Assembly (NCBI GenBank): GCA_023266095.1
Contig: JAHFRV010000004.1
Span: 1-64,000 of the forward strand
DNA length: 64,000 bases
Direction: 5' to 3'
Source: Gammaproteobacteria bacterium
GTDB lineage: Bacteria; Pseudomonadota; Gammaproteobacteria; DRLM01
The notes under the pieces are model-generated. The model was not told the origin of the DNA and did not search any database. It was given only the letters and a program-made list of their open reading frames with translations. This document shows positions 54,684 to 59,674 of this stretch, piece by piece (position 1 is the stretch's first letter; each line of letters begins with the position of its first letter). The position numbers and the translations under genes are program-made.

Positions 54684-56555
54684 CTAGTCTATTTGCCCGC
54701 GGATTTCACCTGGCCGATGCTCGCTGGTGTGGACATTAAAATAGGTATTGCCGTTGCGCATGGCATCAACCAAGGCTTTCATCCGCTGACCGGCGAGAGG
54801 ACCGAGCAAGTCAGCGGCGGTAATCGTGCCGCGCACCAGCACCCCTTGCTTGTTGATCGGTTGCGTGACAAACGGCCCGTCACCCAGAAAGTCTGCCGTA
54901 TCCGGGACAAAGCTCGCGACGATGGGACCGTTGGCACCCGCGGCCGCCATGTGAATATGGGCGCCGATCACGTCCACGATATTACTCACAACCACCTGCA
55001 CCTTGAGTTCGGCTCCGTCTCGACTGAGCTGAAAGTGCGCGTGCCCCTTGGCCCGGGTTTCCACCGGTGTCGGCACTTGCTCAGCGCCGAGGAGTCGGGC
55101 CCGGAAATGACGTGTTTGCTTGTTGCGCGCCAGCGAATCGATGCGCATGACCACACCCGTCTCGCCGGACGGCACCCCGGTCATATTGGCCAACACGTAC
55201 ATCTCGCCCTTGGCGTCGGTTGCGAAACCGAGCACTGACATTCCTAATCCGTCCTGACCGTGGATGCGGAGCTCGGAGATAGCGCTTTTCTTGATATTGC
55301 CACCGCGCACGACATTGCGTTTATCGAGGTATAACAGCCTGCCGTTGTTACCGCCGAAATTGCGATTGTAATCACCGAACACATAACGATTCATCAGCTC
55401 CGGGACTTGATTGCCGCGATAGACAAAACCGCCAATGACCGAAATGCCTTCATCGTGATCATATTCGGCCACCGGATCGATCAGCATCGGCGGCTCATTG
55501 GGGCAGGGCTGCTCGTCGGTGACGAAACCGCGATCGGTCCCATTGGCATCGAAACAGAAAGAACCTTCTTTGACGGGCCAGCCGTAGTTGCCGCCCGCAA
55601 CGACGACATCCACTTCTTCGATGTCGTTCTGCCCCACGTCGCCGACATACAGATCACCCGTCGCGGTATCGAAAGAAAAACGGAAGGGATTACGAAAACC
55701 CCAGGCATAAATTTCGTCACAGGCGCCATCCGCGCAGCCCGCTGCGCCGCCTGCAGCTTGCGTATTGCCGGGTAACAAGGGGTTGTCGGCTGGGATGCCG
55801 TATTGTCCGTTGGGCGCATCATTCCCCAAGGGATCGATGCGCAATATCTTGCCGAACAGATTGCTCAGGTCTTGCCCGTTGCCGTTGGGACTGTGACCCG
55901 GGCCTTGGTCGTCGGCGGCGCCGCCATCACCTATGGCGATATACAGCATCTGGTCACGACCGAAGTTAAGCGCGCCGCCATTGTGATTGAACTGGGGGTC
56001 AGCAATACGCAGCAAGACGCGTTGGCTGGCCGGGTCGACCACGGAGTCATCGTCTTGCGGATCAGGCACGTGCCATTCGGTGATCACGATATGGTTATTG
56101 GCGGGCGCGCCAAAGGGCACGGGAAAATCCGGCTCGCCAGCCACCGGTTCTGAGGTGTAGGTATAGAGCAAGCCGTTGCTCTGATAATCAGGATGAAAGG
56201 CCAGGCCCAAAAATCCGCGTTCGTCAAAGGTGCCCGGGCCACCGACACCCAAGGGGACCAGCAAGGCGCTGAGATCGGCGAACACGCTCATGTCGCCCGA
56301 TTCGAGATCGATCGCCCCCAGGATGCCCGTTTGATCGACCACGAAGAGTCGATCATCGTCACCCGGCGCGGACGTACCCCAATTGGGCGAAACAAGTCCA
56401 CTGGCGACCAGTTCCAACTTGACCATGGCACCAGTGGGGATGGATTGAGGAATCGGGTTAACCAGTTCAGCGGCGGCTGAGGTCGGTAGCACAACGTTCA
56501 AGCTTGCAACAGTCAGGAAAACGGCGATCATCAACCGGCAAAATAACCTGTTCAT
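54684..56555 (-). CDS. Exported PQQ-type soluble sugar dehydrogenase with CHRD domain
   Basis: A 623-aa exported protein. A signal peptide (about 1-29, ending AAA) is followed by a six-bladed beta-propeller of the glucose/sorbosone dehydrogenase family (about 50-480). Recognisable parts are RGFLGLAFHPDY, HNGGALNFGRDQMLYIAIGDGG, YAWGFRNPFRFSFD, VGQNDIEEVDVV and NYGWPVKEG. The C-terminal part (about 485-623) is a CHRD domain (HFRARLLGAEQVP, AHIHMAAAGANGPIV, TYFNVHTSEHRPGEIRG). The first catalyses PQQ-dependent aldose oxidation in known members; the role of CHRD is unknown. RBS AGGAGGGG is strong. Confidence 0.9.
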   Translation of the reverse strand: MNRLFCRLMIAVFLTVASLNVVLPTSAAAELVNPIPQSIPTGAMVKLELVASGLVSPNWGTSAPGDDDRLFVVDQTGILGAIDLESGDMSVFADLSALLVPLGVGGPGTFDERGFLGLAFHPDYQSNGLLYTYTSEPVAGEPDFPVPFGAPANNHIVITEWHVPDPQDDDSVVDPASQRVLLRIADPQFNHNGGALNFGRDQMLYIAIGDGGAADDQGPGHSPNGNGQDLSNLFGKILRIDPLGNDAPNGQYGIPADNPLLPGNTQAAGGAAGCADGACDEIYAWGFRNPFRFSFDTATGDLYVGDVGQNDIEEVDVVVAGGNYGWPVKEGSFCFDANGTDRGFVTDEQPCPNEPPMLIDPVAEYDHDEGISVIGGFVYRGNQVPELMNRYVFGDYNRNFGGNNGRLLYLDKRNVVRGGNIKKSAISELRIHGQDGLGMSVLGFATDAKGEMYVLANMTGVPSGETGVVMRIDSLARNKQTRHFRARLLGAEQVPTPVETRAKGHAHFQLSRDGAELKVQVVVSNIVDVIGAHIHMAAAGANGPIVASFVPDTADFLGDGPFVTQPINKQGVLVRGTITAADLLGPLAGQRMKALVDAMRNGNTYFNVHTSEHRPGEIRGQID

Positions 56556-56694: not shown

Positions 56695-58032
56695 TCAAGG
56701 CCGCGCCGCGGCCGTCACGGCGGGCGTCACCCGCCAGAGGGTATTGCCCACATCGTCGGCGACCAGTAGCGCGCCGGTTTTATCAACGGCGACACCGACC
56801 GGGCGGCCCAGTGCGTCGCCGTCGGCGTTGACGAAGCCGCTCAGCACGTCCACCGGCATGCCGGCGGGGCGGCCGTCGCTGAAGGGCACGAACACCACTT
56901 TATAACCACTGCGCGGTTTGCGATTCCAGGAACCGTGTTCACCGATGAAGGCGCCATTGTTGTAGAAATCCGGTAATAAATTGCCTTGGTAGAATACCAG
57001 TCCGAGCGGCGCGACGTGGGCGCCCAGCGCGTAGTCCGGGGCAATCGCTGTCGCGACCAGCTCAGGACGCGGCGGTTTGACACGATCATCGACATGCTGG
57101 CCGTAGTAACTGTCAGGCCAGCCGTAAAAGCCGCCGTCTTTTACCGACGTAAGATAATCGGGAACGAGATCGCTGCCCAGTTCGTCGCGTTCATTGACCA
57201 CCGTCCACAGTTCGCCGCTCTGCGGCTGCCAGGCCAAGCCGTTGGGATTGCGCAAACCGGAGGCGAAGAGCCGCGTCTGTCCGGTGGCGGGATCGACCTC
57301 GAGTATCGCGGCGCGATTCACCTCCTTGTCCATGCCGTTCTCGCCCACATTGCTGTTGGAACCGACCGTCACGTACAAACGTGTACCGTCGTGGTTGGCG
57401 ATGACATTTTTGGTCCAATGATGATTGAGCGGACCGGCGGGCAGGTCGGCGACTTTGACGCCGGCCGCCTTGATCTCCGTCTCGCTGCCCTGATAGGGGA
57501 AACGCAGAATGGCGTCGGTGTTGGCGATGTAAAGATCATGGCCGACCAGCGCCATGCCGAACGGCGAATTCAATCCGTTCAGAAAGATCGAGCGGGATTC
57601 CACGACGCCGTCGCCGTCGGCATCGCGCAGCAGCGTAATGCGATTGGCGCTGGGAACGGCCGCGCCGGCCCGTTTCATCACCCGCTTCATCACCCAACCC
57701 TTAATGCCTTTGCCGTCTTCCGGCCGGGGCGGCGCATTGGTCTCCGCGACGAGTACATCGCCATTGGGCAACACGTAAAGCCAGCGCGGGTGATCCAACT
57801 CGTTCGCATACATCTTCACCGCGAGGCCGTTGGCCGCGGTCGGCGTCGCGCCGGCCGGCCAGGACTTGGCCGGGGCGATATGCACGGTGGGTAGCAGCGT
57901 GGTGTTGGGTGGCGGCAACGTCGGTTGCGGACCCAGGCCCGCTTCTTCCGGCAACGTGGCCTTTTCACCGCAGGCGGTGAGCGTCAGGCTCACCAAGGCG
58001 GCGATCAATGGCGTAGCAATCATAGCGCGCAT
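56695..58032 (-). CDS. Lipoprotein PQQ-type sugar/sorbosone dehydrogenase
   Basis: A 445-aa protein with a lipoprotein signal (LTLTAC with the cysteine near residue 21), then a beta-propeller of the sorbosone dehydrogenase type: [84 protein letters not shown] and [15 protein letters not shown]. It would be membrane-tethered in the periplasm, unlike the upstream secreted paralogue. GGAGG lies five bases before the ATG at 58032. It lies downstream of the quinone reductase-UbiA gene on the same strand and could be co-transcribed with it. Confidence 0.9.
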
Positions 58033-58102: not shown

Positions 58103-59662
58103 TCACCAAACGACCAGCAGTGGCACCAGTACGAACCACAAGACGTAAGTGAGGGACCCCAGCATGAGATCATCTATGGGCCGGCAGGGCGCACCTTCCT
58201 GATAAAACCGCCGCAAGCGGCGCATCAGCCACCCGGCGTGGGGCAAGACCAGATAAATCAGCCAGCCGCCGAGACCGGGCAGAAATCCCGTCCAATGTAA
58301 AAGCACGGCGGCCAGCGCCGCGCCGGCGGTGCTGGCCATTGCCGCGGCCACCGCGCCCCGCGAACCGAGGACCACCACCGCGGTGCGTTTACCGGCCGCG
58401 AGGTCGGCCTCATAATCGGGGATGGCAGATAAAATGATCGAGGGCAGAATCGCGAAGAACAGCGGCAAACTCACCAGCCACGGAAAAGGGTCGGTCCAAC
58501 TCCCCGACTGCAATGCGTAACCGCACGCCACGACCAGCGCACTATGGGTGGCGGCCACCGTGAGCTCGCCCCAGCCGCGATAAACCAACTTCAACGGCGG
58601 CACGGTGTAACTCACCGCCAGGAGTGCGATGGCGCCGATGGCCGCGGCGTCCGCCGACGTCAGCGCAGTGTTGCCGCGAAATAAAAAATAACCGAGCGGC
58701 AACAGGCCGAGCGCCAACATGACTATCGCGGTGCGCACCGCGCCGAAGCTCAACTCGCCTTTGACCAACACCCGCGAACCGCCGTTGAACGGTCCGGGGT
58801 TTTGGTTGAGCTTGTCGCTGGGATAGTCGAAGTATTCATTGCTGAATACGGTGATGACCTCGACCACAAAAATAAATAAATAACCCAGCCAAAACGTGGC
58901 CGCGTCAAAGTGTCCGGTCGTTGACGCAGCGGCCAGCGCGCCGATCCCGTAGGCGAGAAAGGTCATCGGATAAAATTGCAGGCGCATCAATTTCACCCAG
59001 GCGGCGCGGCGGGCCTTGCGCCGCGCCTTTTCCAAACTTATGAAAATTTCTTCACCCGCCTTATAGGCCTCTTGCAGCCATTGCTCGCGTTGCACGGGCG
59101 AGGCCGGTTTTACCGGGCCAAAATGACGGGCGTGCAGTGTGCGTATTCCGCAAAAGCCCAGAGTGGCGTGCCGCATCGCCTGGTCGCCGGGGGCATGAAA
59201 CAAATAACGGAACACCCACGGCGGCGTATCCATGGTCACCAAGAGTTCCGCGCTGCGGCCGTCGAGATGAGAGACGTAACGCCCCGGCTGCCGTTCATCC
59301 TCATGGAAGGCGAAGCCGGGCGCCAAGATCCGGTCGAGAAAGCCTTTCAGCAAAGCCGGCATCGTCCCCCACCAATTGGGATAAACAAAGACCAGATGCG
59401 TGGCTGCGAGAATACTGGCGCGCGCGGCAAGGATATCCGACTCCGTTTTTTGTTGATTGGGCGACGCGGAACGCACGTGGGGGTCGAATTGTAGATCCGC
59501 CACATAGAGCAACTCGAGGTCCGCACCAGCGCGGCGCGCGCCCAGCGCATAGGCCTGAGCCAGCCCGGCACAGAAACTGTCCTTACGCGGATGACCACAG
59601 ATGACTAATATTTTCGCTATCGTCGTCCTGTCCTCTTGGGTGGCAAAACCGTCACTGTGCAT
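58103..59662 (-). CDS. Flavodoxin-like quinone reductase fused to UbiA prenyltransferase
   Basis: A fusion of two enzymes, about 519 aa from ATG 59662 (TTG 59674 adds four residues; numbering below uses the longer form). Residues 20-215 are a flavodoxin-like NAD(P)H:quinone oxidoreductase domain ([43 protein letters not shown]). A basic linker joins a UbiA membrane domain (231-523) with about eight hydrophobic segments, the first aspartate motif NEYFDYPSD (279-287), a [12 protein letters not shown] loop and the second motif [12 protein letters not shown] (420-431). The UbiA half looks closest to MenA-like enzymes. The fusion suggests prenylation and reduction of a quinone in one protein; substrate unknown. 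Confidence 0.88.
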
Positions 59663-59674
59663 GCGCCAGATCAA

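Follow-up and report, generated by a model that had tools for sequence, protein, structure and literature searches.

The fusion gene and its two domains

The window analysed here, a 64,000-nucleotide stretch of a gammaproteobacterial contig (JAHFRV010000004.1), carries on its minus strand an open reading frame in which a flavodoxin-fold quinone reductase is followed by a membrane prenyltransferase of the UbiA family. The gene, its recognisable parts and the two genes behind it are listed below; residues are numbered in the 519-residue form that begins at the ATG.

58103..59662 (-): Flavodoxin_2/NQO-like plus UbiA fusion gene, 519 residues from the ATG at 59662; open reading frame with two Pfam domains
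59069..59614 (-): flavodoxin-fold quinone-reductase domain of the FMN-binding type, residues 17-198, including an 18-residue stretch whose letters are not shown
58106..58984 (-): UbiA prenyltransferase membrane domain, approximately residues 227-519, with nine predicted transmembrane (TM) helices
58814..58840 (-): first Asp-rich motif NEYFDYPSD, residues 275-283 (N275-EYF-D279-YPS-D283)
58403..58417 (-): second Asp-rich motif DYEAD, residues 416-420 (D416-YEA-D420)
58604..58609 (-): catalytic Tyr352-Thr353, equivalent by profile alignment to Y139/S140 of AfUbiA and Y174/T175 of UBIAD1
56695..58032 (-): GSDH-family putative lipoprotein, a probable operon mate, 70 bp after the fusion stop and with a good ribosome-binding site, GGAGG, before its ATG
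54684-56555 (-): second GSDH protein, with a C-terminal CHRD domain, the next GSDH gene in the row behind the fusion

A TTG at 59674 offers an alternative start (58103-59674, 523 residues); the frame contains no internal stops, and the plus strand over it contains many. Both domains, which the earlier note had recognised from the letters, score above their Pfam cut-offs: Flavodoxin_2 (PF02525) matches residues 17-198 (E 4.7e-32, 111.7 bits against a cut-off of 27) and UbiA (PF01040) matches residues 242-488 (E 1.1e-24, 87.6 bits against 34.2). The 15-residue NAD(P)H quinone reductase signature that the note had placed in the first half was located at residues 94-108 and is fully conserved, and the two aspartate-rich motifs it described are present as N275/D279/D283 and D416/D420. 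These residues, together with Y352 and T353, are invariant across 26 aligned fusions and display the superfamily pattern of NxxxDxxxD plus DxxxD plus a catalytic Tyr. Five residues essential in E. coli MenA are the equivalents of AfUbiA N68, D72, Y139, D198 and D202 (PMC4106721), and their counterparts in the fusion are N275, D279, Y352, D416 and D420. One annotated record names the fusion gene only 'NAD(P)H-dependent oxidoreductase', the membrane half having been overlooked.

An AlphaFold2 model of the whole fusion, computed from an alignment with 26 natural homologues (mean pLDDT 87.9, pTM 0.77), is of good confidence and consists of two parts, a flavodoxin fold and, joined to it by a linker helix, nine TM-length helices; the membrane half modelled alone reached a pLDDT of 89.4 and a pTM of 0.86. 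By sequence and fold, the nearest PDB entries to the flavin half are the quinone oxidoreductases Smu.1420 (3lcm, Foldseek E 6e-10), NQO2, NQO1 and 4r81. NQO1/NQO2, Smu.1420 and the MdaB-type reductases of PF02525 share the fold and signature of the N-terminal half but are soluble, single-domain proteins, whereas the fusion's domain is tethered to a membrane prenyltransferase. The UbiA half matched UBIAD1, MjDGGGPS, AfUbiA and ApUbiA (8djk, 6m31, 4tq4, 4od5) in Foldseek with E < 2e-4. Its two Asp-rich motifs come directly after TM2 and TM6 in the model, as they do in the UbiA fold, and in AfUbiA they lie on the cytosolic side (PMC4106721). From this correspondence we infer that the flavin domain and the N-terminus of TM1 face the cytosol, the side of prenyl diphosphate binding. 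The reductase domain, which the earlier note had placed next to the prenyltransferase, would thus be on the same side of the membrane as the UbiA active site.

Distribution, origin and gene neighbourhoods

Thirty other full-length two-domain homologues were found; with that of the window they make 31 distinct sequences, approximately 40-84% identical. Twenty of the others come from haloarchaea, two from Gemmatimonadota and eight from Pseudomonadota, the last being the window's sister gammaproteobacterium, Litchfieldella, Lutibaculum, a Burkholderiaceae MAG, a Roseinatronobacter plasmid and the genomes G024, G190 and G260. An additional copy, in a Rhodovibrio MAG (L045), is cut by the contig end. 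The fusion is rare: in an even sample it was found in 4/369 genomes of the window's class, after which scores drop from ~340 to 125 bits, and in 17/244 genomes of the haloarchaeal class (a drop from ~410 to 117 bits). Going by record titles, the carriers with names stem mostly from saline or alkaline sources, with the exception of the window's sister, which comes from Hainich groundwater.

That an assembly, frameshift or annotation error joined two separate genes, an outcome the earlier note had named as fatal to its reading, is a possibility we consider negligible. Identical architecture recurs in all 31 distinct sequences, including those in the complete genomes of Natrinema, Halovivax and G024 and one on a complete plasmid. 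The sister genome (L020), a separate assembly, encodes a fusion 84% identical to the window's and keeps a matching gene order of GGDEF/EAL, pilin, fusion, GSDH and MnmE, with an extra FG-GAP gene. Nor did literature searches for a flavodoxin-UbiA architecture find a description, so that the other objection anticipated there, a well-studied family with this architecture, fails here too. The two-domain architecture is real, is undescribed as far as literature searches show, and varies on enzyme types that are already known.

In maximum-likelihood trees computed separately for the two halves, the 31 fused sequences come out as a single clade both times (SH-aLRT 95 for flavodoxin, 98 for UbiA), and no standalone sequence falls inside the fused clade of either tree. 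Within the UbiA-half tree, the haloarchaeal fusions cluster together (98), and their sister is a Gemmatimonadota sequence (99). Since both halves are monophyletic, the simplest account of these trees is one fusion event, probably in bacteria, followed by horizontal spread that would have included one transfer into haloarchaea. Comparison with standalone proteins covered four fusions: identity to the best bacterial matches was 45-55% for the flavodoxin half, and no standalone relative exceeded ~37% for the UbiA half. Split pairs were sought from both sides: no standalone flavodoxin lies within ~1.4 kb of the nearest UbiA relatives, and the loci around the nearest standalone flavodoxins contain no UbiA-family ORF.

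The two genes downstream of the fusion had been described in the earlier note as PQQ-type sugar dehydrogenases that, like the fusion, depend on quinone chemistry. Both do lie on the same strand and are members of the Pfam family GSDH (glucose/sorbosone dehydrogenase), but with 17 and 60 bits they fall far short of the 434 bits set as cut-off for TIGR03606, a PQQ-dependent family, a result that does not support PQQ dependence. The suggested link to the fusion did not survive comparison, because the adjacency is local to the window's genus: in the sister genome only the nearer of the two GSDH genes stands next to the fusion, a GSDH gene beside the fusion was not found outside the genus, and the linkage is therefore not a conserved one. 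In ten haloarchaea a small cupin gene adjoins the fusion (L034:5617-5982 and nine other loci), and in L029 it overlaps the fusion start by 4 bp, as called; the cupin protein is a possible partner of the haloarchaeal fusion. On the Roseinatronobacter plasmid (L111:11385-20000) the fusion stands directly behind a gene for a sigma-70-family factor, with PRC-barrel, P450, catalase and superoxide dismutase genes nearby, an arrangement that suggests stress control. The neighbours in other carriers include phasin, TRAP-transporter, PPDK and further unrelated genes. Across lineages the neighbourhoods are not conserved and point to no quinone pathway; we considered gene neighbourhood as a guide to the substrate and rejected it, since order is not conserved beyond close relatives.

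Placement of the prenyltransferase half and quinone pathways of the carriers

Phylogeny of the UbiA half, another check proposed in the earlier note, placed it on the MenA side of the family in a clade that is not MenA. The tree comprised UbiA-family proteins of ~20 fusion-bearing or related genomes together with E. coli UbiA, MenA and CyoE; its deep supports are weak, and the fused clade is separate from those of E. coli UbiA and CyoE and of the PRK12875 prenyltransferases. Against the NCBIfam MenA models the UbiA half scores at best 50.3 bits, for a cut-off of 277. Natrinema is itself a carrier, and its two MenA proteins reach 375-403 bits (402.8 for L139, a true MenA), with the cut-off at 264. 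On these sequence comparisons, the UbiA half belongs to the MenA/UBIAD1 side of the family and is not MenA. A side observation concerns Natrinema zhouii (G056), whose genome contains 14 UbiA-family matches, many of them in branches that our tree did not assign to a named family.

Among solved structures, the profile of the UbiA half matches UBIAD1, the animal menaquinone-4 synthase, best (E 6.4e-9), followed by DGGGP synthase (5.6e-6), and its highest TM-score is likewise to UBIAD1, at ~18% identity in that fold match. UBIAD1 differs in having no reductase domain, and its Lys181 is not kept: profile alignment shows no Lys at this position in the fusion, with an invariant Arg362 (R362) close by. 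These best matches are not evidence of membership of the UBIAD1 group, as an ordinary MenA gives the same result (the genuine MenA L139, used as a control, also matches UBIAD1 best).

No MenD scored above cut-off in eight fusion-bearing Pseudomonadota genomes, and no MqnA, the marker of the futalosine route, in the six of these eight that were tested. Among the eight, the window's genome (96% complete) and its sister (75%) are incomplete drafts, and G024 and G260 are rated ~100%. The ordinary UbiA of the ubiquinone pathway is present in the five fusion-bearing Pseudomonadota checked. MenD was present in the haloarchaea and Gemmatimonadota tested, as was a true MenA distinct from the fusion. 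These gene inventories indicate that the fusion is an extra prenyltransferase and no substitute for menA or ubiA. With MenD and MqnA not found in the Pseudomonadota, and MenD and MenA separately present in the other carriers, the acceptor is probably not self-made 1,4-dihydroxy-2-naphthoate (DHNA), and self-made DHNA is unlikely in Pseudomonadota in particular.

The earlier note had also raised the question of whether menA and ubiA occur elsewhere in the genome. The window's own assembly contains no PF01040 match besides the fusion, but the sister genome carries ubiA alongside the fusion. A ubiA gene is present in all five relatives and, in the three that were read out, lies within a block of the recG-ubiC-ubiA-kdsD type. 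RecG and KdsD are missing from the window's assembly (G000) as well, so the loss of this block is most likely an assembly gap. Replacement of ubiA by the fusion, a reading that the missing UbiA genes might invite, was rejected on the same grounds.

Could the fusion nevertheless be its host's DHNA prenyltransferase, carrying an extra domain? The best NCBIfam matches of the UbiA half do include MenA models, at ~50 bits, and the tree puts it near MenA, with which it shares the UbiA fold, both Asp-rich motifs and the catalytic Tyr. However, its score lies far under the MenA cut-off (~50 against 277 bits for TIGR00751 / PRK06080), it forms a separate clade and carries a reductase domain, it coexists with a separate true MenA in archaeal carriers, and it occurs in Pseudomonadota in which MenD, and MqnA where tested, were not found. 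DHNA is, moreover, already reduced, being a hydroquinone, and would require no reductase. We consider this reading very improbable.

Possible reduction and prenylation by one protein

NQO-type flavoproteins perform two-electron reduction of quinones to hydroquinones. We propose that the fusion is a self-contained 'reduce-then-prenylate' enzyme that makes a membrane quinone from a quinone that is probably not self-made DHNA, and rate this proposal at about even chances of being right. Here we infer the order of steps, the substrate and the physiological role alike. The cytosolic NQO-like domain, with its presumed flavin, would take a hydride from NAD(P)H and reduce a free, tail-less quinone to the hydroquinone in one two-electron step. 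The electron-rich hydroquinone, the sole form that could be alkylated, would then be attacked by a prenyl carbocation from the UbiA domain, so that the MenA/UBIAD1-type membrane half would add a polyprenyl tail in its active site on the cytosolic side, yielding a membrane quinone. A candidate acceptor is a menadione-like naphthoquinone, obtained from the surroundings or from quinone breakdown. Tethering of the reductase would deliver hydroquinone at the point of use and leave it less exposed to re-oxidation by air, and the host might benefit from an extra lipoquinone or from safe membrane storage of a redox-cycling quinone.

Several observations on characterised enzymes bear on this proposal. 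The mechanism proposed for UbiA enzymes has them form a prenyl carbocation, which then attacks an electron-rich ring (PMC4106721); this implies that a quinone must first become a hydroquinone. Human UBIAD1 formed no MK-4 without DTT, and its authors concluded that menadione needs reduction before prenylation (PMC4398444); the coupling of ring reduction to prenylation suggested in the earlier note is chemically sensible and is backed by this need for a reductant. Free menadione is prenylated by human gut microbes in culture (PMC7928036). MenA of M. tuberculosis, however, rejects menadione (PMC6461227), and MenA-like placement alone is therefore no predictor of menadione use. Further points against the proposal are that proteins of the Flavodoxin_2 type act on azo dyes, nitro compounds and flavins as well, that UBIAD1's Lys181 has no lysine counterpart in the fusion, and that the neighbourhoods vary between lineages. 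The mechanism is plausible, and no neighbouring gene names the substrate.

A different pairing of a flavin-type domain with a UbiA domain occurs in gammaproteobacteria, where a PNPOx_N (flavin split-barrel) domain is fused to a MenA-like UbiA domain (L196:1321-2997, minus strand, and L201:784-2523, plus strand; 61% identical). It shares with the present fusion a flavin-type N-terminal domain and a MenA-like UbiA domain, but its N-terminal split-barrel fold is unrelated and its UbiA domain belongs to a separate branch. MenD is absent from both genomes tested with this second fusion. Its independent origin argues, by analogy, that the pairing of flavin and UbiA domains is functional, and supports the coupling of reduction to prenylation. 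A possible further case (G112:C292:4396-5100) resembles these proteins in open-frame length only. Separately, five haloarchaeal UbiA-family proteins (L115-L118, L123) have a COX15/CtaA-type N-terminal part, examined with Pfam on L117 only, an arrangement of the CtaA-CtaB (heme A/heme O synthase) type.

Two other functions would account for the same protein. Flavodoxin_2 proteins such as KefF and KefG also serve as regulatory subunits of membrane proteins, and the fusion has weak matches to both; its flavin domain could accordingly be a redox sensor, an anchor or a separate quinone-protecting enzyme, with the UbiA half prenylating a carotenoid, lipid or heme, given how varied the acceptors of UbiA members are. 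We think this unlikely, as the quinone-reductase signature is fully conserved, a second flavin-domain/UbiA fusion exists, and the UbiA half sits on the MenA side, away from the E. coli UbiA, CyoE and PRK12875 clades. Similarly doubtful, in our judgement, is a role in specialised metabolism, in which a host-made aromatic or polyketide quinone, a pigment or protectant instead of a respiratory or salvaged quinone, would be reduced and then prenylated. The patchy, horizontally spread distribution would fit such tailoring, as would the oxidative-stress and P450 genes near the fusion on the Roseinatronobacter plasmid, but no polyketide or other biosynthetic cluster appeared among the neighbours examined, and the protein is strongly conserved across hosts that differ greatly, which suggests that they share an acceptor. 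A membrane-bound flavin prenyltransferase that prenylates its own FMN was also considered and found no support.

Most respiratory quinones receive their tails from UbiA-family enzymes. A natural reductase-prenyltransferase fusion would solve by design the problem of how the acceptor quinone of enzymes such as UBIAD1 stays reduced, and would offer a one-gene test system. More tentatively, and with the odds against it, the fusion might be a prokaryotic counterpart of animal vitamin K remodelling with its own reductase built in, turning free naphthoquinones or similar compounds into membrane quinones and thereby giving ubiquinone-only bacteria a lipoquinone for which they have no de novo synthesis, and providing haloarchaea with an alternative route in addition to MenA. 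If a salvaged quinone is indeed used, bacteria without a menaquinone pathway could still gain a second membrane quinone, and the prediction of quinone content from genomes would change.
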